DNA of 48,054 bases from a virus. The notes beneath the pieces are model-generated. The model made no database searches and was not told the DNA's origin. It saw only the letters and a program-made list of their open reading frames with translations. Position numbers and translations under genes: made by a program. Below are positions 14,744 to 32,922 of the stretch, in pieces. Each line of letters begins with the position of its first letter. The stretch's first letter is position 1. The stretch lies in IMG/VR virus record IMGVR_UViG_3300030060_001982, positions 1-48,054 of that record; one strand, written 5' to 3'.

Positions 14744-15091
14744 ATGGGATTATCAGCAGTAACAACAGCAGTTAAATTAGGATATAAACCAGCAATGACG
14801 TTAGCTAAAAAGTTAGCTAAAAAATACTGGTCTGAAGGTTCTAATAAAAAAGATATTGTAAAGGAAGCAAAAGAAAAAAACATCTTACAAAAATTTAACA
14901 ACTTTAAATTAAAGTATGATCCTAAAAAACCTTTAGATAAAAAATCAGACAGAGCAGTTAGCCCCACAGCAGGTAAAAAACCTAGCCTAGATACGTATGA
15001 AGATACAGGAGCAGGAGTAGGAAGAAAAAAAGGAGGTTACATTAAAAAATACGCTAAAGGTGGTGGGGTTCGTAAAGCAAACTACACCTAG
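14744..15091 (+). CDS. small basic protein with KYAKGGGV C-terminal tail
   Basis: 115 aa, basic, mostly Lys-rich helix, beginning 1 nt after the previous stop. The C-terminus GGYIKKYAKGGGVRKANY copies that of the previous gene, while the codons differ (aaatacgctaaa here, aagtacgccaag there). Shared tails on different bodies suggest a portable motif rather than gene duplication. It is the last gene of the rightward virion row; its stop TAG shares the CTAG at 15088-15091 with the stop of the opposing operon. Confidence 0.55.
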   Translation: MGLSAVTTAVKLGYKPAMTLAKKLAKKYWSEGSNKKDIVKEAKEKNILQKFNNFKLKYDPKKPLDKKSDRAVSPTAGKKPSLDTYEDTGAGVGRKKGGYIKKYAKGGGVRKANYT

Positions 15092-15315
15092 TGTATCGTC
15101 TTATTAATATCTTTTTGTAATTCAATGGCTGCTGCCGTGAGCATTTTAATCATGGCAACAATCATTGCTGTATTTGGGTAATCCGGATTCCAATCATCCA
15201 TAGCCTCTTCAAATAATTCAGGGTCTATGTTATCTTCTTCAATTACCACTCTACCCTCTGCATTCAACAGCACAGAGAACCTGAACAGCAACGCTTCTTT
15301 AGGTTTCTTCATCAT
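15088..15315 (-). CDS. unknown small acidic protein, last gene of leftward operon
   Basis: 75 aa. N-terminal KPKEALLFRFSVLLNAEGRV looks like a beta strand pair; the middle is acidic (EEAMDDWNPDYPN) and the end a helix with Met and Ala. It overlaps the MazG-like gene by 17 nt. No family is recognised. It is the distal gene of the replication operon and ends tail to tail with the virion operon. Confidence 0.55.
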   Translation of the reverse strand: MMKKPKEALLFRFSVLLNAEGRVVIEEDNIDPELFEEAMDDWNPDYPNTAMIVAMIKMLTAAAIELQKDINKTIH

Positions 15316-17490: not shown

Positions 17491-17779
17491 ATTCCATCTC
17501 CAAAATCATCTCTAAATAATGTATTGCTTTGTGTATATCTTTTGCACCTTCACCTTTTCTTCTATGCCTAGTAATATATTTTAAAGCATTTCCCTCACAG
17601 AAAGTCAAGTTGTTTTCCATGATGTAATCAATAGGTTGTATTTTACAATCTTTATAGTGACTACCGCCCACCTGTCTATTCGTAGCCATCTTAGCTTGTT
17701 TCTTTAAATCTGTTTTCTTAAAATGTTGCTGCACAGTTCGCCTGATAGCTTCATCCATACTTTTAGGTTCACTCGCCAT
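17477..17779 (-). CDS. DUF3310 family protein
   Basis: 100 aa from the ATG at 17779, which has GGAG 7 nt upstream; a longer frame to 17899 lies inside the upstream gene and lacks such a site. The signature VGGSHYKDCKIQPIDYIMEN plus FCEGNALKYITRHRRKGEGA and a following AIHYLEMILEM helix is diagnostic of DUF3310, a small phage family described as nucleotide-kinase-like. Function is not established; the neighbourhood of RNR and MazG supports a role in nucleotide metabolism. It overlaps RNR by 14 nt. Confidence 0.85.
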   Translation of the reverse strand: MASEPKSMDEAIRRTVQQHFKKTDLKKQAKMATNRQVGGSHYKDCKIQPIDYIMENNLTFCEGNALKYITRHRRKGEGAKDIHKAIHYLEMILEMEYGEE

Positions 17780-18113
17780 CAGGTTTCTCCGGTTGAAACT
17801 CGAACTGAATAACATTATCATCTTCTTCGTCATCCTGTTCAAGAACGAATGGCTGTTCCACATCTGGCTTACTAATCTTTGTGTCTCTATATATTGCAAT
17901 TTGACCTCTCTCTAATAAATATTCTGGTTCATTTAAAATGGATGCTGTGATTCCTCTCATAACTGTATAGCCATCAGTAACCTCTTTCTTATCTGTACTA
18001 TCATAGCACATAAAATCTGTAGCACCATCAGGCTGGTCTCGTATGATAATCACATAAGAACCTTTAGGTATTACCTTTCCAAACTCTTTAAATATTTCTC
18101 TGTTATCAGACAT
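17769..18113 (-). CDS. unknown small acidic protein
   Basis: 114 aa. Beta-rich N-terminal half (GKVIPKGSYVIIIRDQPDGA, VTDGYTVMRGITASI) and a very acidic tail (EQDDEEDDNVIQFEFQPEKP). An acidic C-terminus occurs in ssDNA-binding and replisome-interacting proteins, but no OB-fold signature can be claimed here. It overlaps endonuclease I by 8 nt and the DUF3310 gene by 11 nt. Confidence 0.5.
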   Translation of the reverse strand: MSDNREIFKEFGKVIPKGSYVIIIRDQPDGATDFMCYDSTDKKEVTDGYTVMRGITASILNEPEYLLERGQIAIYRDTKISKPDVEQPFVLEQDDEEDDNVIQFEFQPEKPDGE

Positions 18114-18477
18114 CTAGCCACTCCTTTGGTAAAAATTTATCACACCATTTAATTTCATATCTATCACACCAACCACCATACGTTGTTTTAGAACCTTTGT
18201 ACAGCTTAGAACTAGCATTGAGAAACAAAAATCGTATATCTAATTCTGGTTGCTGTTTTTTAATTATCAAATGTTTACCTCTATCTGGTGCTGTAAACTG
18301 CCCCTTCACTTCTACAAAGAAACCATACTTCTTCAAATAAAAGTCTGGCGTGTAAGTACACTCCTTAATATACTGTATAGGATGTTTCTCATACTCATAC
18401 GCTATCTTCTTCTTCACCAGTTGCTGTGCTACATTCAGTTCAAAGTTCGATCTGAACCCATGTGACTTCATACTCAT
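18106..18477 (-). CDS. endonuclease I, T7 gp3-like Holliday junction resolvase
   Basis: 123 aa. Catalytic pattern: E13 (SNFELNVAQQL), D45 (YTPDFYL), E56 and K58 (FFVEVKGQF), corresponding in order and spacing to T7 endonuclease I E20, D55, E65 and K67. Known: the enzyme cuts four-way junctions and branched DNA, freeing replication intermediates for packaging and helping break down host DNA. Start is ATGAGTATG overlapping the upstream stop (ATGA). It is slightly shorter than T7 gp3 (149 aa). Confidence 0.88.
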   Translation of the reverse strand: MSMKSHGFRSNFELNVAQQLVKKKIAYEYEKHPIQYIKECTYTPDFYLKKYGFFVEVKGQFTAPDRGKHLIIKKQQPELDIRFLFLNASSKLYKGSKTTYGGWCDRYEIKWCDKFLPKEWLDV

Positions 18478-18905
18478 AGCGTTCTTATGTCCTTCGGTGG
18501 GTACATATCAAATATCTCTGAGGTCTCATCTCGCATGGCATTCATAAGTTTAGGAGATCTCTTCTCCATGTCATGCAGCACATCCGTCCAGTTGCCTATG
18601 AAGAAACATACCAAAGCACCTCTATCTAACAAAGATTTCATATAGTTTAAATCCTCTCTAAACATCTGCATCTTCTCTTCAAACTGCATGTCTGACCAGA
18701 ACCCTGTGTACATGCTGCCGTACTTTTCGTCTACCATAACGTAAGATTTTCTAATACGTATTGGTACACCCTTGCTGTTGGTTCGCACCTCTCTTACTAT
18801 ATCTGGGCCTGCTATTCTATCTTCTGATTCTGGATAGGCAAAATGTACTTTATCATTCATAAATATATCACTGCGATTGATGTTAGTTTGAAAATACAAA
18901 GCCAT
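18474..18905 (-). CDS. unknown protein of the replication operon
   Basis: 143 aa. Mixed alpha/beta; it contains DEKYGSMYTGFWSDMQFEEK, a hydrophobic strand LVCFFIGNWTDVLHDMEKRS and a C-terminal DMYPPKD. No motif could be assigned. It lies between the exonuclease and endonuclease I genes, separated from a 23-aa membrane micropeptide by no spacer. A replication or recombination accessory role is only a guess from position. Confidence 0.55.
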   Translation of the reverse strand: MALYFQTNINRSDIFMNDKVHFAYPESEDRIAGPDIVREVRTNSKGVPIRIRKSYVMVDEKYGSMYTGFWSDMQFEEKMQMFREDLNYMKSLLDRGALVCFFIGNWTDVLHDMEKRSPKLMNAMRDETSEIFDMYPPKDIRTL

Positions 18906-19861: not shown

Positions 19862-20681
19862 TTACAACTGTGTCGAAGCTCTCTTTATCACCACGAGCTT
19901 CTTCATGTTTTTTCATGATTGACTCGTTGTAACCCTTCACAGTTTCCATAAATTCATGCATTAACTTATCATCCTCTTCAGTCCAATCAGCTATCTGCCC
20001 ACGTGGCGTTAGCTCTGCTTGAAAATAGATGTTCCCACCTTTCTTTTTTCGTACAGAAGACAGCCCGATAGTCGTCAACCACATAGGTTGTTTTTGTTTA
20101 TGCAGGCTTTTTAGACAGTCGCTTGCCGGAACGAAGTTCGCACCCTTAGCGTACCACACGCTAGGAATATCTTTCTTCTCTACAGCCTTGCCCTTCTTAT
20201 CTTTCGCCCCTTCAAGAGTAACAAGTCCATAGATATTCTGGTTGCACTTTACACTTTTCTGTAACACCCACTCAGGGCTGTCCTTTGGTAAAGACTCCAG
20301 TTCATTCGCATCTAAACGACCACACTTTAATCCTCCTTCAGTATCGTAAAACTCACTGTTGAAAGACGGTGCCTGTACAGTCATAGATGTGAAAGCACCT
20401 TCTTCATTATCCCAAACTGAATATGAGTACGTTCTCATAAACGGTCTGATCGTTGCTTTCTCACCGTAGAATATACCATCGTCTGTAATCAAAGAAAAAT
20501 GTCCACGAGGCAGGGCATTTCCCTCTTCATCTTCAGATGCGTGATTTATTGATAGTCGTGCCAAACCTTTACTTGTAGTTGGCATGTCTGCTGCCTGTCC
20601 AGTCAACTTCATCATGTCGTCTATAGATGCCGTTGATATCTTTTCAGGCAAGTTGGTCTCCATCGTCATAGTTTCGGTCAT
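19854..20681 (-). CDS. putative ssDNA-binding protein
   Basis: 275 aa. It lies between DNA polymerase and the exonuclease, the usual place for a single-stranded DNA-binding protein in HMO-2011-like and T7-like genomes. Strand-rich segments with aromatic residues (EKATIRPFMRTYSYSVWDNE, GNIYFQAELTPRGQIADW) would suit an OB fold, and the C-terminus is acidic. No certain motif is seen, so the call rests mainly on position and general composition. It starts in the ATGA overlap with the polymerase stop. Confidence 0.5.
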   Translation of the reverse strand: MTETMTMETNLPEKISTASIDDMMKLTGQAADMPTTSKGLARLSINHASEDEEGNALPRGHFSLITDDGIFYGEKATIRPFMRTYSYSVWDNEEGAFTSMTVQAPSFNSEFYDTEGGLKCGRLDANELESLPKDSPEWVLQKSVKCNQNIYGLVTLEGAKDKKGKAVEKKDIPSVWYAKGANFVPASDCLKSLHKQKQPMWLTTIGLSSVRKKKGGNIYFQAELTPRGQIADWTEEDDKLMHEFMETVKGYNESIMKKHEEARGDKESFDTVVNE

Positions 20682-22729
20682 ATTTGTAATACTCCTTTCT
20701 GGTCTAACCAGTTATAACCAATTTTCAATTCGATTCCAATAGGCATATCATACTCTATGTCATACCTTCGTATACATTCAGACTTTATTGATAGCATTGC
20801 TGTCTTTAGTGCTTCTATCGCTAACTCCTTTTCGGAGGGATAGACATCAAGTACGATGGAATCATGTACTGTATTACAAATAATAGACTGCATAGTATTC
20901 TTTGTCAACATCTTTTTTAAATAAACTAATGCAATAGGTAGCAAATCCGCTGTGGCAAAGCCTTGCACAGGATAATTTTTTATTGAAGTTGAGTTGGTAA
21001 CACCACCATGACGTAATCTATATGTGTTTTCAAATGCAAAATGTCGTCCATTTGGTAAAGTAATTTGTTGTTCAGTCACAGCCTCGTTACACAAGTCTTC
21101 ATGCCACTTGGTTACTCCTTTATACTTATCTTTAAATGCTCTATAGTATTGCACTTGTTTTGGTGTACCCATCAGCCCTCCATACAAGGGTTTAAACGTG
21201 TCAGCTTTGGCATCCTGTCTAGACACTCCAAGTATGGATGCTGTATAGGCATGCACATCAACATCATTCTTTACATCTTCATATACCTTCTGATCCTTTG
21301 CTAAAAATCCTGCCACCCTAAACTCAAGCTGTGAGTAATCACCCTCTAAAATATAACCACCTTGCCATCTACTCACTACAACTTTACGAACAGGAAACGT
21401 ACCACCTCTAGGCATATTTTGAAAGTTTGGATTTCTAGAGGACAGCCTGCCTGTTGATGTGACACACTGCATGTACTGTGGATGTATCTTATCCTTTTTA
21501 TCCAATCCTTTTTCTATCCCGTCAATGAAAGTTTTCAAGTATGTTTTGATAGCATTATACCGACTATAGGATTCTATGAAAATTTTTTGTTGGGAATTTG
21601 CGGATGAAACCAGTTTGTCAATCATGTGCTTATCCGTCTTAAATCCATGCACTGTAATATCATCTACACTGTTGATGTTCATCTTAAATCCAGCTATGTC
21701 TTTCTGTCTTATGTATACTACGCCTTTGCCTCTACAGGCTTTACATATTCTTTTCTGTTTACCAATAGTTCCGTCTTTCTTCATAGCATAGAAATATCCA
21801 GAGCCACCACATTTGTAACAGGATTCCATTTTAGTCTTGTACAGCAATCGTGTCTGTCTAGCTAAGGCCTGTGATAGGACAGCAGAAGTCATTCTCTTCG
21901 GTCTCTTTTTACGCCTGCTGTTTCCTCGATCTTCATAGCCAAGATTAAATATCATAGCCCATCTTTTTTTATCTATGACCTCTCGTGAAAATATCACTCG
22001 TGATCTATCTTCACTGCTATCCAGATTAATTTCTGTATCACCCATCACACGTTTAACTTCGCTAGTTAAGAATGATTCTAATCTTTTAATTTCTGCTGTA
22101 TACTCTTCTTTAATAGATAATAGATTCTGTCTACTAATCTGTATACCAGCAAGCTCCATATCTGTAAGTAAGTCACACATCTCATTTGACAATTCTAATG
22201 TTGCCTTCAGTCTGTCAGGCATATTGTCAAGCTGTGCTTCATACAACTCTTTGGTAACTTGCACATCTGCTTCACCGTATTCTTTTACAATAGGCCATGG
22301 TATTCTCTCAAAAGATATTTTATCCTGTAGATACTTTTCTGTCAGGTCAGTTTTTTTCGGTGATAGTGCATATCTCTCACAACATTTCTTCAATGACAGT
22401 GGCACCTTACTACCACCGTTTATTAAATACTCAGCTATCATAGTGTCGTACACATCTCCTGTATAGGTAAACCCACAGGCACGCAACCATTTTAAATCAA
22501 ACTTAATATTATGTCCTACTAATAATTTAGTCATGTTAAGCACAGCCTGTAATTGTCGTTTTGCACTCTCAGTCGGTGGTCTATCTTTATGATAGAAACA
22601 TAAGTAATCTTTATTACCTTCACAATCATAACCTACAGACACCAACATGTTTCCTGTGTGTGGATCAGCGTCTGTCTTCTTATCTGCCAACACTTGAAAT
22701 GTTGTCTCTACATCTAATACTGTAATCAT
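20678..22729 (-). CDS. polA: family A DNA polymerase with 3'-5' exonuclease and inserted DnaJ-like zinc module
   Basis: 683 aa from the ATG at 22729, which overlaps the helicase stop as ATGA and has GAGG upstream; a longer frame starts at 22783. Exonuclease motifs: D6-x-E8, N74/D78, Y151/D155. Polymerase motif A GDYSQLEFR (D464), motif B R504-x3-K508-x3-F512 then KPLYGG, motif C VHDS (H622, D623). The O-helix position equal to E. coli Phe762 is Phe. Between the two parts lie CxxCxGxG at 304-311 and again at 329-336, a DnaJ-type zinc pair. Known: this fusion is a hallmark of HMO-2011. It replicates the phage genome with the adjacent helicase and primase. Confidence 0.93.
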   Translation of the reverse strand: MITVLDVETTFQVLADKKTDADPHTGNMLVSVGYDCEGNKDYLCFYHKDRPPTESAKRQLQAVLNMTKLLVGHNIKFDLKWLRACGFTYTGDVYDTMIAEYLINGGSKVPLSLKKCCERYALSPKKTDLTEKYLQDKISFERIPWPIVKEYGEADVQVTKELYEAQLDNMPDRLKATLELSNEMCDLLTDMELAGIQISRQNLLSIKEEYTAEIKRLESFLTSEVKRVMGDTEINLDSSEDRSRVIFSREVIDKKRWAMIFNLGYEDRGNSRRKKRPKRMTSAVLSQALARQTRLLYKTKMESCYKCGGSGYFYAMKKDGTIGKQKRICKACRGKGVVYIRQKDIAGFKMNINSVDDITVHGFKTDKHMIDKLVSSANSQQKIFIESYSRYNAIKTYLKTFIDGIEKGLDKKDKIHPQYMQCVTSTGRLSSRNPNFQNMPRGGTFPVRKVVVSRWQGGYILEGDYSQLEFRVAGFLAKDQKVYEDVKNDVDVHAYTASILGVSRQDAKADTFKPLYGGLMGTPKQVQYYRAFKDKYKGVTKWHEDLCNEAVTEQQITLPNGRHFAFENTYRLRHGGVTNSTSIKNYPVQGFATADLLPIALVYLKKMLTKNTMQSIICNTVHDSIVLDVYPSEKELAIEALKTAMLSIKSECIRRYDIEYDMPIGIELKIGYNWLDQKGVLQI

Positions 22730-23934
22730 GGGATGTACCTCGCTTTCTTGATATCTATTCTGCAAGTGACTACCCCATGCCATCCTGTCAGTTTATTTTT
22801 ACTAACACACAAATGTCGTATGTAGTCTTCTTCGTCTCCAAAATTCTTGCCTATACCTATGATAATGTCAGCCTCAGCAGCCTTGCCTGTACGGGAGTTT
22901 TCTAACATGCCAAAGTCAATCTCCTGTCTATTGTGTGCTTCATAACTAGCTTGTGACACAGCCCATATCATACAGTCTCTTCTTTTTGCAATAGCTCTTG
23001 ATGTTTCATAGATAGCTCTCAGTTTTTCATCAACTCTAGCATAGCTGTCATTGATACTTACTTTGTCAAGTTGGTCTACAAAAACAATGTCAGGCTTGTG
23101 TGTCTCTACAAACTTATCAATCTCTGAAATAGATATTTGCCTTCCTTCTAATAAAAGCAAATTAGGTTTTATTTTGTCAATGTAAACCTCATCTGCACTC
23201 TTAACATCTTCTCGTAACTCATTGACTGTTTTGCCTAAATAGGAACAAAAGATTCTACCCTTTACCATTCTTCCCGGTTCTTCATTTGCAAAGTACGCCA
23301 CCTTATACCCTTGTTTGATATACTCAGACACTAAGTATGTACAGAAAGTTGTCTTGCCTGTTTCTGGTCTAGCAAAGATAATACCTAAATTGCCTCTGCC
23401 CACGCCATTGATTTTGTCACGAAGTGGTTGCAGTGCGAATTGAAAGTCAAACCCTCTGTCACAGCTTTCTAAATATTGGGATACATTGTCATCAACCTTT
23501 ACAAAATTACTGTCATCTGTAGGCTGTTTGTCAATTAATTTGTCAACTAAGTTTTGCAGCCCAGCATAGTCACCATTATGACCTAACCAAATGTCAGTGG
23601 CTTTTGATCCTATCTCATGTGCTTGGTTTCTTCTCCAGAAATTTATCACCAAATCTTTTGCTAAATCTGAATTGCCTGTATAGTTTTTTAAATCTCTTAT
23701 TACTTCTTCTATCATATCACGGCTACTATCTGGCATAGCAGGGAACTTGTCTCTATGTAGATTAACAAGTTCCTCTACAGTTAAATCGCTGTCATACTTT
23801 ATGTGAGCATGAGCAATAGTATCGAATATAGTACCCACTCCATTGGCAAACATCTCCTTTCCTATAATATCATTTACTTCCTGATAGAAGTCTCGCTTTA
23901 AACAGTGTGCTAGTAATTGTCTTTCTATTGTCAT
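22726..23934 (-). CDS. replicative DNA helicase, DnaB/RecA-fold type
   Basis: 402 aa. N-terminal helical domain (1-150) followed by a RecA-like motor: Walker A ARPETGKT at 188-195, Walker B IVFVDQLD at 283-290, and a later AVSQASYEAHNR sensor region. It unwinds the fork 5' to 3' as a hexameric ring. In T7 the equivalent motor is fused to primase in gp4; here primase is a separate upstream gene joined by a 4-nt ATGA overlap, which suggests coupled synthesis and a two-protein primosome. Confidence 0.9.
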   Translation of the reverse strand: MTIERQLLAHCLKRDFYQEVNDIIGKEMFANGVGTIFDTIAHAHIKYDSDLTVEELVNLHRDKFPAMPDSSRDMIEEVIRDLKNYTGNSDLAKDLVINFWRRNQAHEIGSKATDIWLGHNGDYAGLQNLVDKLIDKQPTDDSNFVKVDDNVSQYLESCDRGFDFQFALQPLRDKINGVGRGNLGIIFARPETGKTTFCTYLVSEYIKQGYKVAYFANEEPGRMVKGRIFCSYLGKTVNELREDVKSADEVYIDKIKPNLLLLEGRQISISEIDKFVETHKPDIVFVDQLDKVSINDSYARVDEKLRAIYETSRAIAKRRDCMIWAVSQASYEAHNRQEIDFGMLENSRTGKAAEADIIIGIGKNFGDEEDYIRHLCVSKNKLTGWHGVVTCRIDIKKARYIP

Positions 23935-24716
23935 GAACTATACACTCTGAATTTCTCGTTAATTTTGTGAATGTCCCATGTCTTGATGTCTGTCTCTATA
24001 AAAAGATTATGTACAGACATATGTGCAAACAACTCTTTAGCAATGGTCAGTGACTTTTGACTTGCATCTTTGTCAAGAGCAACGATTGCTGTTTTAAATT
24101 TCTTGATGTAGTTTATATAATTGTCAACTAAGTTTGTCCCCATTAGTGCTACACCAACCACACCCGCTTGTGTTACTGCACAGGCAGATGCACAATCCTC
24201 TACAATCACACAAGTGTCAGCTTTATTGTTAGTGACAAACGGCACACGACTAGCACAGTATCGCTTCCACTTTGGTTTGCGATTTGTCAGCGACCTACCC
24301 ACAGCATCAACCAAAACATTGTCATCATCATACACTAAAAATACAACCCTGTTCTCTCTAACATCATGTTCTAGATTCGCCAACTTTTGGGAGTAAGCAT
24401 GATAGATATTATTATCTTTTATATACTGTACAGCCTTTTGTGACCTAGACACAGGCACGAAATACTGTCTGTACATACTTAAATCTAATCTTTTTTTCTG
24501 TTGCTGTAGACGATTAGGTGATAATAGTCCATGCTTAATTTTACCACTGATCCCACAATCAGCGTAAAAACAATTATAAACCACACTGCCACCCACATTA
24601 GTAGCAGAGAAACTATTTTTATGACCACAGACAGGACAGTCACTACGAAGTGTAACACCCTCCTGTACAGCCATTGCATCCACATAAGCATTTATATTTA
24701 CTCCTTTATGTTTCAT
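23931..24716 (-). CDS. DNA primase with zinc finger and TOPRIM domain
   Basis: 261 aa. N-terminal zinc finger C27PVC30 ... C49FYADC54, typical of template recognition in T7/DnaG-type primases. TOPRIM catalytic residues: E173 in CVIVEDCASA and D215-x-D217 in AIVALDKDAS. It makes RNA primers for lagging-strand synthesis. The order primase, helicase, polymerase with 4-nt overlaps is that of a replisome operon. T7-type primases recognise short sites ending in GTC, which may matter for the TTGTCA bias described in this window. Confidence 0.9.
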   Translation of the reverse strand: MKHKGVNINAYVDAMAVQEGVTLRSDCPVCGHKNSFSATNVGGSVVYNCFYADCGISGKIKHGLLSPNRLQQQKKRLDLSMYRQYFVPVSRSQKAVQYIKDNNIYHAYSQKLANLEHDVRENRVVFLVYDDDNVLVDAVGRSLTNRKPKWKRYCASRVPFVTNNKADTCVIVEDCASACAVTQAGVVGVALMGTNLVDNYINYIKKFKTAIVALDKDASQKSLTIAKELFAHMSVHNLFIETDIKTWDIHKINEKFRVYSS

Positions 24717-24850
24717 ATGTTTACCAAAAACAATATTAGACTGATAACTAGCAGTACAGGAAAAATATGATTAGTCCATGTTTTTACCTTTTTTGTTTTC
24801 TTAAACCACTTACCTGTCGCTTTTAATCTTCTGTCTCTCGCTTTGTTCAT
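24713..24850 (-). CDS. 45-aa single-pass membrane protein, hidden between zinc-ribbon and primase genes
   Basis: The frame begins with MNKARDRRLKATGKWFKKTK and ends in a hydrophobic segment (IFPVLLVISLILFLVNI). It starts 41 nt inside the 3' end of the zinc-ribbon gene in another frame and its TGA overlaps the primase ATG as ATGA. That fills an otherwise unexplained 93-nt gap. A strongly basic N-terminus followed by one membrane helix suggests an N-in orientation. The coupling to primase hints at a membrane link for the replisome, which is an inference. The ribosome binding site (AGAGAGAAGG) sits close to the ATG. Confidence 0.55.
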   Translation of the reverse strand: MNKARDRRLKATGKWFKKTKKVKTWTNHIFPVLLVISLILFLVNI

Positions 24851-24995
24851 CCTTCTCTCTCTTACCCCAATATACTAAATGAAACGCCTCACACTTTGGA
24901 CAAGTCAAATTTGTCACTATCTCATGCTCTTCGTCATCTTCACAATCATGATCTCCACCCCAGATTAATTCTGTATGGCAATTATAACACTTCAC
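24810..24995 (-). CDS. small zinc-ribbon protein
   Basis: 61 aa. Two CxxC pairs (CYNC at the N-terminus and CPKC at about residue 32) with an acidic loop (DHDCEDDEEHE) between them form a zinc-ribbon-like pattern. The C-terminus is highly charged. The start overlaps the methylase stop by 4 nt. It may be a nucleic-acid-binding or transcription-associated protein; nothing more specific is visible. Confidence 0.6.
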   Translation of the reverse strand: MKCYNCHTELIWGGDHDCEDDEEHEIVTNLTCPKCEAFHLVYWGKREKDEQSERQKIKSDR

Positions 24996-25414
24996 TTGTC
25001 ACCTTTAAATATCACAACAGCAGACGGAAACGGTGCTGTACCCTTGTTTGAAAAACTTAATCTACCTCTTAAAAACCTAACTTCTCCCTTGAAACAGTAA
25101 TCATGCCAATACGCTGTATCTGTCCTAGCTGGTATTAAGCACACCACTGTCGCACCTCTTTTACTTTCTGTATAGGCTTTTTTTATCCAGTCTTTGATTT
25201 CTCTACCATACGGAGGATTCATAAATACAGTATCACCAGACCAATCCTGTTCTAATCCATTATCTAATACTGTATAGAATTTCTTGCACAAAGCAGATAA
25301 CTCTGTACAGCAAGGATCTAGTGTAAAATTAAACTCTTTGTCCAACTTATCAAACAAGTCTTTTGGTGTGTACCACTCGTTGCTGTTGCTAGAGAATAAA
25401 CCTTTGTTAATCAT
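24992..25414 (-). CDS. Dam-like DNA N6-adenine methyltransferase
   Basis: 140 aa. The phage Dam family pattern is complete: EWYTP at 13-17, DPC at 33-35 and the catalytic NPPY at 66-69, followed by VVCLIPARTDTAYWHDYCF and a beta-rich end. It transfers a methyl group from S-adenosylmethionine to adenine N6. Phages use this to resist host restriction or to mark their own DNA. The short length is typical for this compact family (PF05869). It overlaps the upstream nuclease-like gene by 8 nt. Confidence 0.88.
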   Translation of the reverse strand: MINKGLFSSNSNEWYTPKDLFDKLDKEFNFTLDPCCTELSALCKKFYTVLDNGLEQDWSGDTVFMNPPYGREIKDWIKKAYTESKRGATVVCLIPARTDTAYWHDYCFKGEVRFLRGRLSFSNKGTAPFPSAVVIFKGDK

Positions 25415-25952
25415 CCATCCTGTCCAATTTTAATTTATAAATATCCTCATGCTTCACATCCACATGAAAAAACGGTTCTTTTAAATGTGGTGCGTCAACA
25501 TGCCGTGAGTTCTGTATAGTCTGTACAGGACTTTTCTCTAGTACATCATGTGGAATAAACCACCCTTGATCCAAATGCCTGTTCAATACTACAAATGTCA
25601 GCTGAAACGGTCTGACAAACTCTTGCATGTTATTATCCTGTGCAAACTCTTTTGCATTGTTTGTCTCGTGATAGAATTTGTCAATCAATCTTTGTTTACG
25701 CTGTGGTATCCTGACCTCCTTCCAATTGTCATTCCATACCTTACCCCATTGATTCTTAACTTCTACCTCCCAAAAACTTGCACAGCCAGAGTCTGCTATA
25801 GTCGACAAGTCCCATGAGAAGTTTTCCTTATCATCCGTAATCTTATGGTCTCTGCTGATTAGATACTTCTTCAGTACAGCCTTCGCTTTACCGTCATTTG
25901 CCATATAGGATAATCTGTTAAATCTACGGTTTTGATGTTTTCTTGTCAGCAT
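25407..25952 (-). CDS. putative PD-(D/E)XK nuclease-like protein
   Basis: 181 aa from the ATG at 25952, which has AGGAGAG 6 nt upstream; a TTG further upstream is too close to that site. The segment SWDLSTIADSGCASFWEVEVK carries an Asp (D48) and, 16 residues later, E64-x-K66, the usual spacing of a restriction-endonuclease-like active site, and QRKQRLIDKF follows. No exact family is recognised. It sits directly upstream of and overlaps the Dam-like methylase. It could be a recycling nuclease or half of a small restriction-modification pair. Confidence 0.45.
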   Translation of the reverse strand: MLTRKHQNRRFNRLSYMANDGKAKAVLKKYLISRDHKITDDKENFSWDLSTIADSGCASFWEVEVKNQWGKVWNDNWKEVRIPQRKQRLIDKFYHETNNAKEFAQDNNMQEFVRPFQLTFVVLNRHLDQGWFIPHDVLEKSPVQTIQNSRHVDAPHLKEPFFHVDVKHEDIYKLKLDRMDD

Positions 25953-26139
25953 AGCCAACTCTCCTCAACATTGTGTCTATACCTTTATTCTCACCTTGCC
26001 TGTATGCAATCTTATAATAATCTTTAATCAATCCTAATTGAAACGCTGTCAATTGTGTGTCACCTAAAATGTCAATCAATCGCTGTTCGTAAAATGACTC
26101 GTCAAAATCAAGTGTTATTTTGTTCTTGTTCGTACTCAT
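25924..26139 (-). CDS. unknown small protein of the leftward early cluster
   Basis: 71 aa with a strong AGGAGG site before the ATG at 26139. Mostly helical (ESFYEQRLIDILGDTQLTAF, LIKDYYKIAYRQGENKG). It overlaps the nuclease-like gene at its 3' end by 29 nt and the upstream gene by 32 nt. No domain is recognised; small early phage proteins of this kind often bind host enzymes. Confidence 0.6.
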   Translation of the reverse strand: MSTNKNKITLDFDESFYEQRLIDILGDTQLTAFQLGLIKDYYKIAYRQGENKGIDTMLRRVGYADKKTSKP

Positions 26140-26512
26140 TCATAGCCTCCTGTTGTTTGTCGTACCATACTTCTTGCCAGAGTTCTCTAACTTGCTCCTC
26201 AAACTCATTCCAAAAGTAACCTAATGGTAAATACATCTTACCATTAATCATCTGTTGATCACAGTTTTGTAAAACTTCCTCTACAGTCTCACTTTCTAAA
26301 CACATGTCCTGTATCTTACGCCATGTCTTATCATCTTGTTCCTGTATATACTGTTTATACTTTCCCATTTTTATCCCTCCGTATTGTTTTACCTTTTCTT
26401 TTAATCTAAGATACTCATCAATATCTTTCTGTGCAGTATCTATTCTGTCTTGGCTGTACACAGTCAGTAAATTATTTACATGATGATATCGCTGTTCAAA
26501 TTTATTTGTCAT
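26108..26512 (-). CDS. unknown helical protein
   Basis: 134 aa, helical and charged, with Gln- and Glu-rich stretches (QDKTWR-type surface, ELWQEVWYDKQQEAMNEYEQ). The start ATGACAAATAAA lies behind GGAAGG. It overlaps the neighbours at both ends. No family is recognised. Confidence 0.6.
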   Translation of the reverse strand: MTNKFEQRYHHVNNLLTVYSQDRIDTAQKDIDEYLRLKEKVKQYGGIKMGKYKQYIQEQDDKTWRKIQDMCLESETVEEVLQNCDQQMINGKMYLPLGYFWNEFEEQVRELWQEVWYDKQQEAMNEYEQEQNNT

Positions 26513-26694
26513 TTGTCACCTTCCTCTAAAATATCTGCAATATAAAATTCTTGCTGTACAAAATCAAATGTATCTTTTGTCAACAATCGTTCCATTTTCT
26601 TCTTCACATCTGCCTCGCTTGTGCCTTCAGCAGTTCGCTTATAGTACGATACCTCTCTGGCATAAACAACATATTTCTTTTTCTGTACAGCCAT
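26509..26694 (-). CDS. unknown small protein, early leftward cluster
   Basis: 61 aa. Pattern: strand, helix, strand (KYVVYAREVSYYKRTAEG, ADVKKKMERLL, FDFVQQEFYIADILEEGD), a compact alpha/beta fold common in small phage proteins. It overlaps the downstream gene by 4 nt (ATGA). The ribosome binding site is weak, so it may rely on read-through from the upstream 50-aa gene. Confidence 0.6.
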   Translation of the reverse strand: MAVQKKKYVVYAREVSYYKRTAEGTSEADVKKKMERLLTKDTFDFVQQEFYIADILEEGDK

Positions 26695-26700
26695 TGTTTG

Positions 26701-26853
26701 TCAATCTGGATTGTTTACAAAATTGATAAATTTAAACTCTATATCCTTCAGCTTGTAAGCATAATCTACTATCTCTTCATGACTATTTCTTTCAGTAGCA
26801 TTTATACCTACTAATGCTTCACATAGTTCTTCATACTTTTCTTTGTCACTCAT
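26701..26853 (-). CDS. 50-aa unknown protein
   Basis: Reads MSDKEKYEELCEALVGINAT then a helical remainder ending FVNNPD. The ATG at 26853 has AGGAG 7 nt upstream, and an alternative in-frame ATG at 26859 is too close to that site. It overlaps the upstream 49-aa gene by 8 nt and ends 6 nt before the next ATG. The tight packing supports it as a true gene. Function unknown. Confidence 0.6.
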   Translation of the reverse strand: MSDKEKYEELCEALVGINATERNSHEEIVDYAYKLKDIEFKFINFVNNPD

Positions 26854-26995
26854 CTTCATTCTCCTCTGATTCTGGTATTATAACTCTTTGGTTAATTATA
26901 TCTTGTATCAATTCAAGTACAGCTTTTAATTCATCTTTGCTCAACTGAAATAAATTATCTTTTATTTCTTTTTCTAATTTTTTAATGTCACTCAT
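26846..26995 (-). CDS. 49-aa unknown helical protein
   Basis: Reads MSDIKKLEKEIKDNLFQLSK then a second helix (DELKAVLELIQDIINQRV) and an acidic tail. GGGAG lies 9 nt before the ATG. It overlaps both neighbours by 8 nt. Like the next gene it opens with MSD plus a Lys/Glu helix, so the pair may share an origin. Function unknown. Confidence 0.6.
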   Translation of the reverse strand: MSDIKKLEKEIKDNLFQLSKDELKAVLELIQDIINQRVIIPESEENEDE

Positions 26996-27206
26996 TTGTT
27001 TTTACTCCCACTACCAACAGCGTCAGTTTGTCAGCTATTTTTTCTTTGTCAAACACTTGGCATACCTCGTCCCATACACCGTTTTGAAAATCATCGTGGT
27101 ATAGGTCTAAAAATCTAGCGTTTGGGATTACCTCCCAATTAACTCCCTTTAACTCCTTCTGCTGTTCAGCTGTCAGAGTCCATTTACCTGTTTCTGGTTT
27201 ATGCAT
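26988..27206 (-). CDS. unknown small protein
   Basis: 72 aa from the ATG at 27206, which is 7 nt from AGGAG; a second ATG at 27212 is only 1-2 nt away from it. The sequence opens MHKPETGKWTLTAEQQKELK and ends with a strand (LTLLVVGVKTNE). It opens with the same MHKP as the upstream gene. No domain is recognised. It overlaps both neighbours by 8 nt. Confidence 0.6.
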   Translation of the reverse strand: MHKPETGKWTLTAEQQKELKGVNWEVIPNARFLDLYHDDFQNGVWDEVCQVFDKEKIADKLTLLVVGVKTNE

Positions 27207-27480
27207 CTCCATGCTCCTCTAACTCTTTTTGAACCACAGCATCTAACTTAGATGTTATACAGCTTAATAATATATTGGTAGCACATGCATTGCTCGGTGC
27301 TGTATCAAAAGCCAACTGACAATTAAATAGCTGTATAGCCTGTACCATGTTGGGAATTGTCACTCTTTCTGATAGTTCTTCAGACAAGTCTAATAATTTG
27401 TCACGCACTAATGCTATCTGTCCACTGTCAGACAATGGTGCTTTCTTTGGTTTTAGTTTTACTAATTTTGGTTTATGCAT
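27199..27480 (-). CDS. unknown helical protein
   Basis: 93 aa behind a very good AAGGAGGTTGTAA site. A basic N-terminus (MHKPKLVKLKPKKAPLSDSG) is followed by helices (IALVRDKLLDLSEELSERV, MVQAIQLFNCQLAFDTAPSN). Small, early and first in the row after one 56-aa gene; no family recognised. Confidence 0.6.
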   Translation of the reverse strand: MHKPKLVKLKPKKAPLSDSGQIALVRDKLLDLSEELSERVTIPNMVQAIQLFNCQLAFDTAPSNACATNILLSCITSKLDAVVQKELEEHGDA

Positions 27481-27643
27481 TTACAACCTCCTTATAATGT
27501 TCATCTCTATCTTTTTCTTCTGTATATACAAAATAATGGTCAGAGAATCCATCTCCAGAATTAATTGCCTTGCAAACATCTTCTGTACAGACATTAAATA
27601 TAACTTTAGTTTCTGTATTCAATCCATATAAAATATTTGTCAT
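27473..27643 (-). CDS. 56-aa unknown protein, first gene of the leftward operon
   Basis: Reads MTNILYGLNTETKVIFNVCT, then an acidic region and DEHYKEVVNA. AAGGAAGG lies 7 nt before the ATG at 27643. It overlaps the next gene by 8 nt. The start codon sits in a doubled TTGTCATTTGTCAT (plus strand). It is the most upstream gene found on this strand with good signals, so the leftward promoter should lie in 27650-27760. Function unknown. Confidence 0.6.
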   Translation of the reverse strand: MTNILYGLNTETKVIFNVCTEDVCKAINSGDGFSDHYFVYTEEKDRDEHYKEVVNA

Positions 27644-27684
27644 TTGTCATCCTTCCTTAGTTATTAGACTGTACAGTCCCAAAG

Positions 27685-27906
27685 TTACCACCACACATTA
27701 GAGCTTTGGTTAATAAGATTCCCATTATCTTTCGATAGTGTAGCTATCCCACCTAACAAGCTGTACAGTCTGTTTATCATGACGGCTAAAGGTCGGTCTG
27801 CATATTGTCTGCCTTTAATTAAGTGTACTGAACTAGTATTACCTAAACACACCGTCACTAGACTTATAAACGATAAGCAATATAAAACTTTGTTTGAATA
27901 AATCAT
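27685..27906 (-). CDS. doubtful secreted or membrane small protein
   Basis: A 73-aa frame opening MIYSNKVLYCLSFISLVTVC, which looks like a signal peptide, followed by a polar region. There is no ribosome binding site, and the frame runs through two CTGTACAG control sites. It could be a true small exported protein or chance in an AT-rich control region. Listed for completeness with low confidence. Confidence 0.25.
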   Translation of the reverse strand: MIYSNKVLYCLSFISLVTVCLGNTSSVHLIKGRQYADRPLAVMINRLYSLLGGIATLSKDNGNLINQSSNVWW

Positions 27907-27981
27907 GTACAGCTAAATATACTAAGACTCAGACACGGTCAAGAATAATAAACGCTGTACAGTATCTTTTTCATATTGACT

Positions 27982-28002
27982 AGTATCAGTCGATTTGATA
28001 CT
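27982..28002. promoter_or_regulatory. dyad operator AGTATCA-N7-TGATACT
   Basis: A perfect 7-bp inverted repeat with a 7-nt centre, placed immediately after TTGACT (27976-27981) and 67 nt before the first rightward gene. Such 21-bp dyads are typical binding sites for dimeric helix-turn-helix regulators. The protein that binds it is not known; the mini HTH gene at 29022 is one candidate. Confidence 0.5.
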
Positions 28003-28068
28003 TATGTATCACCGTCCAGATTTGGTTGGGGGGTTTACATATATATCCTATACAGAAAGGAAGGGATT

Positions 28069-28287
28069 ATGCAAAGACAGATAGTTAAGAATCTAATTAG
28101 TATCTATACAGCAGAGATTACAAAAGCTAAGACTAATATAGATGTACTAATGGTCAATCCAACATCTATACCTGAGCATAGTGAATTTACTAAAGAACTT
28201 GATAAACATATAACAGAGATAGCTACAGCAAAAGAAAAGATTGCTGTATTGAAAGATGACTTAGCTTATCTTGGAAAGGATTATTAA
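28069..28287 (+). CDS. unknown helical early protein
   Basis: 72 aa from the ATG at 28069 behind AAAGGAAGGG; the longer upstream frame lacks a ribosome binding site. It is helical (MQRQIVKNLISIYTAEITKA, LDKHITEIATAKEKIAVLKD) and may form a coiled-coil hairpin. First gene of the rightward early operon. Confidence 0.6.
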   Translation: MQRQIVKNLISIYTAEITKAKTNIDVLMVNPTSIPEHSEFTKELDKHITEIATAKEKIAVLKDDLAYLGKDY

Positions 28288-28288
28288 T

Positions 28289-28528
28289 ATGAGTATGAAT
28301 GTAGAAACTTTAATAGAAGTATTACAGCAAGTAAAAGATAAGAAATTACTTGTTAGATTAGATATGCCTAAAGACAATACAGATAAAATAATTAGTAACT
28401 TACATGGGCGTATATTTTCTAAAGATGATGACTATCCTAACTATTGGCTACACAGCATATTTGTACATAACAAAGGGGATTCTGGTTATGAGCAGAACGG
28501 TGAAGTAACTTTATGGGGAGAAGAGTAA
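28289..28528 (+). CDS. unknown early protein
   Basis: 79 aa from the ATG at 28289 (AAAGGA 9 nt upstream); a TTG at 28271 would overlap the previous gene. N-terminal helix then beta-rich (KLLVRLDMPKDNTDKIISNL, YWLHSIFVHNKGDSGYEQNG). Its TAA overlaps the next ATG as TAATG. No family recognised. Confidence 0.6.
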   Translation: MSMNVETLIEVLQQVKDKKLLVRLDMPKDNTDKIISNLHGRIFSKDDDYPNYWLHSIFVHNKGDSGYEQNGEVTLWGEE

Positions 28529-28764
28529 TGACAGAAGAAGTATATAAAAAGACTATACAGCAATTACAAGATGCATTGTACACAGCATACAATAGAATCA
28601 GGGAACTCAATGAGCAACTTGAGAAGATTAAGAAGGAACTTATTGAACTACGGTTGCTGTTACCAGAGAATAGGGTGACTGCTACAGAGCATGTTGATGC
28701 TGATTATGGACAGCAAGATATAGAAAAATATTTACAGAGAGTGAGGAAGAATGAAGGGCAATGA
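28528..28764 (+). CDS. small coiled-coil early protein
   Basis: 78 aa. Residues about 5-50 form a long heptad helix (IQQLQDALYTAYNRIRELNE, QLEKIKKELIELRLLL). The ATG at 28528 shares the TAATG with the previous stop and has GGGGAG upstream. Probably an oligomeric adaptor; function unknown. Confidence 0.6.
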   Translation: MTEEVYKKTIQQLQDALYTAYNRIRELNEQLEKIKKELIELRLLLPENRVTATEHVDADYGQQDIEKYLQRVRKNEGQ

Positions 28765-29038
28765 TGTGAATGTAGCTTCTCTTACCAATGAAGAGAAGAG
28801 TAAGTATATACAGCAAAAGGTGAAGGGGAAGATATTCTCTGTATCTTTTATAAAGAAGGACGGCACTGAGAGGACTATGATTTGTCGTTTGGGTGTACAG
28901 AAATATTTGTCAGGTGGGAAAAGTGTCAACGATCCTAGTAAACATCTGACAGTGTTTGACATGCAGAAGAATGCGTATAGAAATGTCGCTTTGGAAACTA
29001 TTTACAGATTGAGGTGCAAAGATGTGTTCATTGGCTGA
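28751..29038 (+). CDS. WYL_2-like small SH3-barrel protein
   Basis: 95 aa. The segment GKIFSVSFIKKDGTERTMIC, RLGVQKYLSGG, HLTVFDMQKNAYRNVALETI matches a small phage family with an SH3/Sm-like barrel (WYL_2, formerly DUF2693, as I recall it). Members occur in many marine phages and are thought to bind ligand or nucleic acid. It overlaps the upstream gene by 14 nt and the mini HTH gene by 17 nt. Confidence 0.65.
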   Translation: MKGNDVNVASLTNEEKSKYIQQKVKGKIFSVSFIKKDGTERTMICRLGVQKYLSGGKSVNDPSKHLTVFDMQKNAYRNVALETIYRLRCKDVFIG

Positions 29039-29201
29039 TATTAACATTAAACAATTGTCATCTGTCATGGATGATTTTGAGGAGAATAAATTGTCAACAG
29101 ACTGTATAGCAGAAAAATATAACTTGTCAGTCGCAGAGGTCGTACAAATTGTCAACGAATTGTCATACTTTCGTAAGAACCGACATAAATTTGTCACATA
29201 A
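29022..29201 (+). CDS. 59-aa helix-turn-helix-like protein
   Basis: Reads MCSLADINIKQLSSVMDDFE then KLSTDCIAEKYNLSVAEVVQ and IVNELSYF. The central stretch has the shape of an HTH: helix, short turn, recognition-like helix (TDCIAEKYNLSVAEVVQIV). The gene overlaps the WYL_2-like gene. It contains seven of the TTGTCA hexamers, partly because Leu-Ser is encoded as ttg tca. It is a candidate regulator of the control regions described here. Confidence 0.6.
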   Translation: MCSLADINIKQLSSVMDDFEENKLSTDCIAEKYNLSVAEVVQIVNELSYFRKNRHKFVT

Positions 29202-29222
29202 ATTGTCATCTAAAATTTGTCA
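29055..29222 (+). repeat. cluster of eight TTGTCA hexamers
   Basis: TTGTCA occurs at 29055, 29091, 29124, 29149, 29160, 29191, 29203 and 29217, always on the plus strand, eight copies in 168 bp; another is at 28907. The spacing is irregular (11 to 36 nt). This is the densest part of a wider bias across 21.6-30.5 kb. It resembles an iteron array or a set of priming sites. Confidence 0.7.
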
Positions 29223-29325
29223 ATACTGTACAGCTAACGCTGTAATCTACCAATGGGATAAGTGGTTGTGTTTTAAACATTGGAAGGTTGAAAGAGATAA
29301 GGAAGAAGAAAAGTTAGCTGTATAG
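29203..29325 (+). CDS. 40-aa zinc-finger micro-protein, TTG start
   Basis: An open frame from TTG reads (M)SSKICQYCTANAVIYQWDKW then LCFKHWKVERDKEEEKLAV. The pattern C-x2-C ... C-x2-H is a compact treble-clef or zinc-ribbon signature, hard to explain by chance in a 40-aa frame. No ATG exists in this frame, so TTG at 29203 or 29191 would have to serve, and no strong ribosome binding site is seen. It starts 1 nt after the HTH gene ends. Confidence 0.45.
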   Translation: MSSKICQYCTANAVIYQWDKWLCFKHWKVERDKEEEKLAV

Positions 29326-29338
29326 TAATTATTATTTC

Positions 29339-29368
29339 TTGACAGCATATATATTCTTGCTGTATAAC
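29339..29368 (+). promoter_or_regulatory. sigma70-like promoter for the DUF932 gene
   Basis: TTGACA at 29339-29344 and TATAAC at 29363-29368 are separated by 18 nt. The spacer is framed by the inverted repeat ACAGC (29342-29346) / GCTGT (29359-29363), which overlaps both promoter boxes. It lies 42 nt upstream of the DUF932 start codon. A regulator bound to the dyad would block polymerase. Confidence 0.6.
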
Positions 29369-29409
29369 ATTATTTGTTATTAACCAATTATTTTAGGAAG
29401 GAAATAATT

Positions 29410-30447
29410 ATGACAAATACTACTAATACGAATGATGTAATGGGCGTAAAAAATCCTATTACTAATACTCATAACAATATAGACGATTTATCTTTTTTTG
29501 ATTTTGCTGTAGAGAAAAGACCATTGTTTTTTGAGAATGACACTAACGGTGACGGTCAATCTCTAATGACTCAAGTAAATGGTAAACACGCTGTAGTCAG
29601 ATCAGACACTAATGAGTGTTTAGGAGTGCATGGCAGAACTTATAAGATTGTACCACATATTGATGTCTATAAAAGACACGCAGAATCCATAAAAAATAGT
29701 AGTGCTTATGATTCAGAGCAAATTGAGATTATAGACCAATTATGGGATAAAGGTGCGAAGGCAAGGAGGACTATTCATTTTCTAAATCATACCAAAAGAG
29801 TATCAGAAAAAGATGTTGTAACTATGCGTTCTGATACTTTCAACAGCTTAGATGGTTCTTTTGCATTTCAAGTATTCTCTGGAATGTATAGAGCATTATG
29901 TTTAAACACTTTAGTATTCGGAGGTGAAAAGTTTTATCATAGTAAACAGAAACACACTTCTAATATTAACTATGCTAGTGCTGTATCTAAGATTGCTAAT
30001 TCTGTAGATATGTACAATAGAGACTATGACAAGTTATGCAATTGGAGGGATACTAAAGTAACTGACGAGCAAGTGGCAATGTTATTCGCTAATACGATTG
30101 CTAAGAGAAAATCAGAGTCTACTACAGTTATTAAAGAGGCATTGAAGGAAGAGGGAGTCGAACTAAAACAGTTAATCAATGTTAAACTAAATGATTTCTT
30201 AATGCACCAATACGGTAAAGAAAAAGAGTCACTTGGTGGGACGCTGTATGCTGTATACAATGCACTTACCCATTGGAGTACACACACAGACAGCAGTTGG
30301 GAGAGAACTAACTCTAAAGGTGAAACTGTCACAGCGTATACTTCTAGGAATGGTAGTAATGTAGGGTCAGTGCAGATTGAGAGAGAGAACAAGGTTCGTA
30401 CTTGTTTAGATTCTGACCATTGGAATGAATTGTCATTAGTCGCTTAG
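29410..30447 (+). CDS. DUF932 family phage protein
   Basis: 345 aa from the ATG at 29410 behind AGGAAGG. It has the layout of the phage/plasmid DUF932 family (TIGR03299-like): an N-terminal part with VNGKHAVVRSDTNECLGVHG and RTYKIVPHIDVYK, then LNHTKRVSEKDVVTMRSDTF and NSLDGSFAFQVFSGMYRALC. Function is not known; the family is common in early regions of phages and plasmids. It has its own promoter and is the largest early gene of this arm. Confidence 0.8.
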   Translation: MTNTTNTNDVMGVKNPITNTHNNIDDLSFFDFAVEKRPLFFENDTNGDGQSLMTQVNGKHAVVRSDTNECLGVHGRTYKIVPHIDVYKRHAESIKNSSAYDSEQIEIIDQLWDKGAKARRTIHFLNHTKRVSEKDVVTMRSDTFNSLDGSFAFQVFSGMYRALCLNTLVFGGEKFYHSKQKHTSNINYASAVSKIANSVDMYNRDYDKLCNWRDTKVTDEQVAMLFANTIAKRKSESTTVIKEALKEEGVELKQLINVKLNDFLMHQYGKEKESLGGTLYAVYNALTHWSTHTDSSWERTNSKGETVTAYTSRNGSNVGSVQIERENKVRTCLDSDHWNELSLVA

Positions 30448-30462
30448 AAAATTGTCAGACTA

Positions 30463-32511: not shown

Positions 32512-32922
32512 ATGAATCAAGGATTACTAAAAGAAAGATCCAGAGAGCTCACCAAGAAACAGCAATCGTTCTTAACGGAGTTGTTCAAGTGTGGTGGTAA
32601 TATTACAAAGGCACTAGAACTATCTGGTTATAAGCCATCTTCTAGACAGCACGTATTACAATCTCTCAAAGAAGAGATCATAGAACAGGCAAAGGTAGAA
32701 CTTGCAGCACACTCGGTTACAGCAATCAATCGTGTAGTCGAAGGTATGAATGATGTAGGTGAACACCCTAGAGCAGAGTTGCGACTAAAGGCTGCACAGA
32801 CACTTCTCGACAGGGTCGGTCTGGGCAAGCAAGAAAAAATTGATGTAGAAGGTAAGTTACTTCACGGTGTGGTATTGATGCCTGCCAAGAAGGAGATGCC
32901 AGTTGTGAGTGTGGAAGACTAA
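32512..32922 (+). CDS. terminase small subunit
   Basis: 136 aa. N-terminal helix-turn-helix region (ELTKKQQSFLTELFKCGGNI, TKALELSGYKPSSRQHVLQS) typical of TerS DNA-binding domains, a helical centre with AINRVVEGMNDVGEHPRAEL and RLKAAQTLLDRVGLGKQEK, and an acidic end, as in Terminase_2-like subunits. TerS binds the packaging site as a ring and hands DNA to TerL. Start ATG 32512 lies about 100 nt downstream of the promoter. Unusually, TerL lies 3 kb further on. Confidence 0.8.
   Translation: MNQGLLKERSRELTKKQQSFLTELFKCGGNITKALELSGYKPSSRQHVLQSLKEEIIEQAKVELAAHSVTAINRVVEGMNDVGEHPRAELRLKAAQTLLDRVGLGKQEKIDVEGKLLHGVVLMPAKKEMPVVSVED

Follow-up and report, generated by a model that had tools for sequence, protein, structure and literature searches.

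How does a phage come to carry a six-letter word in one DNA orientation across early genes that are transcribed in both directions, and what might read it? The DNA analyzed here, called the window, is a linear virus record of 48,054 bp. An earlier note on this sequence had reported about 39 copies of TTGTCA on the plus strand between positions 21615 and 30457, against roughly six copies of the opposite orientation, TGACAA, and had suggested that the word may be a priming site for the phage primase. A one-way word that disregards gene direction suggests a signal that is read by the DNA-copying machinery.

The sequence of the window indicates that it is an HMO-2011-type marine podovirus. Its family A DNA polymerase gene (20678 to 22783, minus strand) encodes CYKCGGSG and CKACRGKG, which are two DnaJ-type CXXCXGXG motifs, although the Pfam DnaJ_CXXCXGXG match to this protein is below the Pfam cut-off. 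Two such motifs in the DNA polymerase are a hallmark of the HMO-2011 group (PMC9038755). Among isolates, the twelve best matches of the polymerase are to HTVC033P, CRP phages (roseophages), and HMO-2011, at 34 to 44% identity. Helicase, primase, terminase, and portal are also common to the window and HMO-2011-type phages (an SU10-type portal domain is located at 39909 to 42026), and these phages, which include SAR116 phages, roseophages, and pelagiphages, resemble the window in gene order and replication module. Transcription runs leftward from 27.6 kb through the replication genes and rightward from 28.1 kb through small early genes. Searches for tRNA and Rfam matches in the window were negative, and neither a match nor a related contig pointing to the virus host was found in the genome collection.

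Exact counting yields 40 TTGTCA and 6 TGACAA on the plus strand of positions 21615 to 30457, nearly as had been reported, and 43 and 16, respectively, on the plus strand of the whole window. Only three copies of TTGTCA lie outside that interval (at 11878, 20902, and 32040). Codon-aware expectations were obtained by resampling synonymous codons 400 times, with every protein held fixed. Leftward genes contain 29 TTGTCA, whereas 8.7 ± 2.6 are expected and the maximum among the 400 runs was 16. Rightward genes contain 8, against 0.57 ± 0.75 expected, and most of these belong to one dense cluster (8 copies, 29055 to 29222). The opposite orientation, TGACAA, is near its codon expectation in the block. 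Thus, the argument that a shared orientation in both gene directions goes beyond codon preference survives the codon-shuffled comparison that the earlier note had proposed. A second proposed comparison, with GC skew, gives the same picture, because the skew switches near 28 kb along with gene direction, but the polarity of the motif does not.

Two other parts of the original description need adjustment. An excess had been calculated from base composition, with about three copies expected; it is real, but about 4-fold rather than 13-fold, because codon and amino acid usage in this genome somewhat favors TTGTCA in leftward genes to begin with. Similarly, copies are indeed few elsewhere in the window, yet no significant depletion is left once codons are considered. 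Counts outside the block equal the codon background and are low simply by codon usage; even the lack of any copy from 34 to 48 kb, which looked striking, is inside the codon expectation.

The sites form a main polar block on the plus strand from 23063 to 30457. Its sharp left edge is located 871 bp into the gene for the DnaB-like replicative helicase (22726 to 23934, minus strand), which serves as the reference point for profiles across the family, and it ends just past the DUF932 gene (29410 to 30447, plus strand), which is the right-hand limit in the window and in relatives. Left of the edge, a thin tail continues on the plus strand inside the polymerase gene (20902 to 22229), with TTGTCA at 20902, 21615, and 22224. 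The densest sustained stretch (23414 to 24324, plus strand) covers the 5' part of the helicase gene and the primase gene, with copies at 23414, 23486, 23528, 23540, 23928, 24070, 24121, 24284, and 24319. The divergent region between leftward and rightward early genes (27644 to 28068) contains only the copy at its left edge, at 27644, and polarity is not flipped there. The iteron-like cluster at 29055 to 29222 holds 8 copies in 168 bp of the plus strand, all in one orientation but irregularly spaced (36, 33, 25, 11, 31, 12, and 14), and is also present in the close relatives L037 and L038. Most of it is contained in a small ORF of 59 amino acids (29022 to 29201, plus strand), whose coding sequence includes six TTGTCA, of which four encode Leu-Ser. 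A family search with this ORF gave no trusted match, and its helix-turn-helix look was judged by eye only. Together, these data show an early and replication block of about 7 kb with dense, strand-polar WTGTCA on the strand opposite the polymerase gene.

The refined consensus is WTGTCA, or TGACAW on the polymerase strand. One-letter variants define a TGACA core that is followed by A or T and a weak A/T tail, with a pyrimidine in front in one group of relatives (clade S, below). Of the 16 possible NNGTC pentamers, only TTGTC has a strong polarity in the block of the window, and TTGTCA accounts for nearly all of its excess (38:5). A is strongly fixed at the position that follows GTC. ATGTCA is also enriched, most clearly in clades S and D, and lies outside the set (G/T)2GTC. 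Aligned flanks show little conservation around this 6-bp word.

Relatives were gathered by scanning a viral collection with the polymerase and helicase. The block is found in three well-separated clades, whose helicases are 99 to 83% (clade W), approximately 70% (clade S), and 46 to 43% (clade D) identical to that of the window; S and D are metagenomic, and W is the clade of the window itself. All three carry TGACAA on the polymerase strand, oriented as in the window, with polarity and density above codon-aware nulls, in accord with the expectation that relatives with the same type of primase should share the enrichment. An unbiased ranking of k-mers by enrichment and polarity places TGACA/TGACAA first in W, in S, and in pooled D. 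In each clade, counts drop sharply at a point about 0.9 to 1.2 kb into the helicase gene, and sites extend upstream toward DUF932. The sites of W and D are densest around the helicase start, and those of S have a roughly even density; dense clusters occur near DUF932 in L048 and L041 and near the primase start in L025. Although the divergent promoter shifts, the block keeps its place with respect to helicase, primase, and DUF932. The genes that W, S, and D have in common include helicase, primase, and polymerase, whereas none of the small genes inside the block is common to all three. Clade S also has a cluster in a comparable small gene close to DUF932 (L048 409-666, L041 5296-5541).

Clade S separates selection on DNA from selection on genes, because transcription of most of its early genes, as of those of L025 in clade D, runs counter to that of the polymerase. 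The opposite-strand genes of seven clade S genomes, which are kin and thus do not provide independent events, would be expected to hold 21.4 ± 3.6 TGACAW oriented as on the polymerase strand but contain 101; in the reverse orientation they have 16, against 14.2 expected. Block genes on the polymerase strand of this clade contain 67 TGACAW (18.8 expected), and the region downstream of the sharp edge contains 13 (22.3 expected). Opposite-strand genes of the distant L025 carry 16, against 4.9 expected. A codon or RNA feature would flip in the opposite-strand genes of clade S, but the motif keeps its orientation in the DNA. Codon usage, RNA-level signals, promoters, and transcription-oriented stoperators therefore do not explain it.

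Individual sites are not strongly conserved; they are retained only modestly more often than background. In the helicase gene, where density is nevertheless high, none of the site positions of the window recurs in L022, L023, or L025, no position is common to W and D, and turnover between clades is nearly complete. Thus, selection appears to maintain the density of the word and its DNA orientation, not positions, gene content, codons, or transcripts. Synonymous variation, which was considered as a pointer to an origin, is low in the first part of the helicase gene in clade W; this fits the motif itself and provides no separate signal.

Nothing like this field of sites appears in large collections of HMO-2011-like and HTVC033P-like contigs, despite homologous primases, and the HMO-2011, CRP-1, and HTVC033P lineages are without the polar block. 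GACATGG and GATGAC in the HMO-2011 clade and TGATAG in the HTVC033P clade were considered as counterparts of the motif and rejected, as they mostly occupy a few homologous helicase positions and do not form a field of sites. CTATG is mildly polar upstream of the helicase, with 27 and 7 copies on the two strands in HMO-2011 and 23 and 1 in CRP-1 (L032, L033), which may reflect codon usage. A search for a reader gene exclusive to the motif-bearing clades was likewise unproductive: three small genes outside the block (15088 to 15315, 17769 to 18113, and 18474 to 18905) are common to W, S, and D and were not detected in the HMO-2011 and HTVC033P lineages, but they have no clear function.

Several explanations that do not involve replication can be weighed against these observations. 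Codon usage, amino acid content, or base skew might seem sufficient, given that leftward genes read the word mainly as Asp-Lys/Asp-Asn or Thr-Lys/Thr-Asn, that rightward genes read it as Leu-Ser, and that the GC skew of the region favors C on the plus strand. This possibility is refuted because counts exceed synonymous-codon resampling for leftward and rightward genes alike and for each of the three clades, and because polarity stays when gene direction flips. Arrays of -35 promoter elements (TTGACAA on the polymerase strand) are almost certainly not the answer either. The divergent promoters of clade S do use TTGACA with TATAAT, but TATAAT-like boxes 15 to 19 bp downstream of the word (W 2/83, S 18/189, D 1/45) are in the range of shifted controls, and the aligned flanks contain no -10 signal. 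Stoperator-like sites, at which a repressor or silencing protein blocks transcription of the early region, would account for many asymmetric sites that are confined to that region, and the stoperators of mycobacteriophage L5 are likewise numerous, short, asymmetric, and strictly oriented phage sites (PMC9283540). However, the orientation of L5 stoperators follows the direction of transcription (PMC9283540), whereas here it is fixed in the DNA while the direction of transcription varies between and within genomes; with the majority of sites also located within genes, this explanation is very unlikely. Polarity of type III restriction sites, as in T7 and EcoP15I, entails one orientation for all sites genome-wide. 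It was rejected, since 16 opposite sites are present, 6 of them inside the block, and the motif is enriched rather than avoided.

A polarity that is indifferent to transcription suggests a reader that moves along DNA or sees a single strand, such as a replication fork, a recombination nuclease, or an initiator that binds single-stranded DNA. Our best guess, offered tentatively and with somewhat less than even confidence, is that the block consists of primer start sites near a putative origin, with the phage primase as the candidate reader. The gene for this minimal zinc-finger TOPRIM protein (23931 to 24716, minus strand) adjoins that of the DnaB-like helicase. The protein carries the invariant residues C27, C30, C49, and C54 as well as E173, D215, and D217, and this combination of a zinc-binding CxxC...C...C with TOPRIM assigns it to the DnaG/T7 primase family; its predicted structure (pLDDT 85) matches the DnaG and T7 gp4 folds. 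T7 primase recognizes the trinucleotide GTC (PMC9198812), produces the primers ACCC, ACCA, ACAC, and ACAA, and favors A/T-rich sequence on the 3' side over any single fixed base (PMC12839067). The phage word shares the GTC core, and TTGTC belongs to the (G/T)2GTC pentamers and would yield the known T7 primer ACAA.

If this primase is the reader, WTGTCA would be read on single-stranded DNA by the replication machinery, and primers beginning pppACAA or pppACAU would be started opposite WTGTC. A fork or displacement loop would enter from the side marked by the sharp edge, which is about 0.9 kb into the helicase gene, and the plus strand of the window would be the lagging template of a rightward fork. 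With a fork entering near 23 kb, the block might be the first stretch to be displaced, which would give a local field of sites on one strand. Loading the first-displaced strand with primer sites could permit a quick start of second-strand synthesis.

The priming proposal of the earlier note thus retains a real, polar, non-codon motif that contains GTC, together with a primase of the DnaG/T7 fold, but several observations count against it. Primase sites in the T7 genome are neither clustered nor locally enriched or strand-biased, whereas here a dense one-strand block of 7 kb is surrounded by background. T7-type priming sites are expected on the lagging-strand template on either side of an origin, but enrichment is on one strand only, with none mirrored beyond the sharp edge or on the other side of candidate origins. 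Codon-background counts outside the block also argue against priming, as lagging-strand priming is needed everywhere, and so do the homologous primases of the HMO-2011 and HTVC033P clades, which lack the motif, and the fixed A after GTC, where T7 has an A/T-rich flank. Moreover, priming does not predict the second density peak near DUF932.

The sites could instead be iteron-like, with same-orientation repeats bound by a double-stranded DNA-binding initiator or nucleoprotein-forming protein that seeds origin opening or packaging from a core at the 29055 to 29222 cluster. That cluster of 8 direct repeats inside a small early gene, which L037 and L038 share, and its counterparts in L048, L041, and L025 are consistent with this possibility. 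Plasmid and lambda iterons, however, consist of direct repeats at regular intervals, to which a cognate initiator binds. Here the word is only 6 bp with little flank conservation, spacing is irregular over 7 kb that includes conserved, essential replication genes, and W, S, and D have no common small gene in the block, which makes iterons unlikely. Chi-like recombination or protection sites seem more improbable still. A host RecBCD/AddAB-type enzyme moving leftward from the pac/terS end would be halted by TTGTCA met from its 3' side, and replicating DNA would be protected. Chi sites are likewise short, polar, reiterated, independent of transcription, and free to turn over in position, and they are over-represented in the host genome with a leading-strand bias. 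The block begins about 2 kb from the small terminase gene (32512 to 32922), in the right orientation for an enzyme arriving from there. But Chi density is expected to be highest beside the DNA entry end, whereas no peak is seen by terS; sites are confined to one block, which in W and D is densest at the far helicase/primase end and stops sharply in the helicase gene, and S is roughly flat. Finally, it is possible, although doubtful, that the block is a new kind of signal for replication, in which short sites without fixed positions are spread over kilobases of coding genes on a specific strand and set the direction or strand of replication start.

A literature search did not find a description of such a polar block. 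As priming sites or iterons, it would extend known systems, with a wholly new signal a conceivable but less than probable outcome. If the preferred priming interpretation or another replication role is true, the replication origin and direction could be read from sequence alone for an abundant group of marine phages, and these phages would be bending the sequences of essential replication proteins to hold a DNA word dense on one strand.

A second motif, GCTGTA/TACAGC, is non-polar and occurs genome-wide in the window, with 52 + 42 copies against approximately 11 + 12 expected, most densely at 24 to 32 kb. The palindrome CTGTACAG is present in 17 copies, against 0.8 expected in the window, at positions that include 24426, 24663, 25303, 25521, 26683, 27583, 27669, 27761, 27955, and 29226. 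Both are strongly over-represented in W and S, but not in D or most HMO-2011 and HTVC033P lineages. GCTGTA/TACAGC is possibly an operator or an extended -10 element. A short Dam-type adenine methyltransferase gene (PF05869), located at 24992 to 25414, is present in only one of the close relatives examined.

Divergent promoters in clade S (L041 8560-8740, L048 4630-4840, and L051 3130-3390) have the form TTGACA-N16/17-TATAAT, with GCTG ahead of the -10 element. In L041, an apparent inverted-repeat operator, TGACAA-N5-TTGTCA, was rejected as a general feature: two copies reflect divergent promoters of the same sequence, and a third pair is in a gene of L048. The L041 promoters are two copies of the same promoter that face away from each other.
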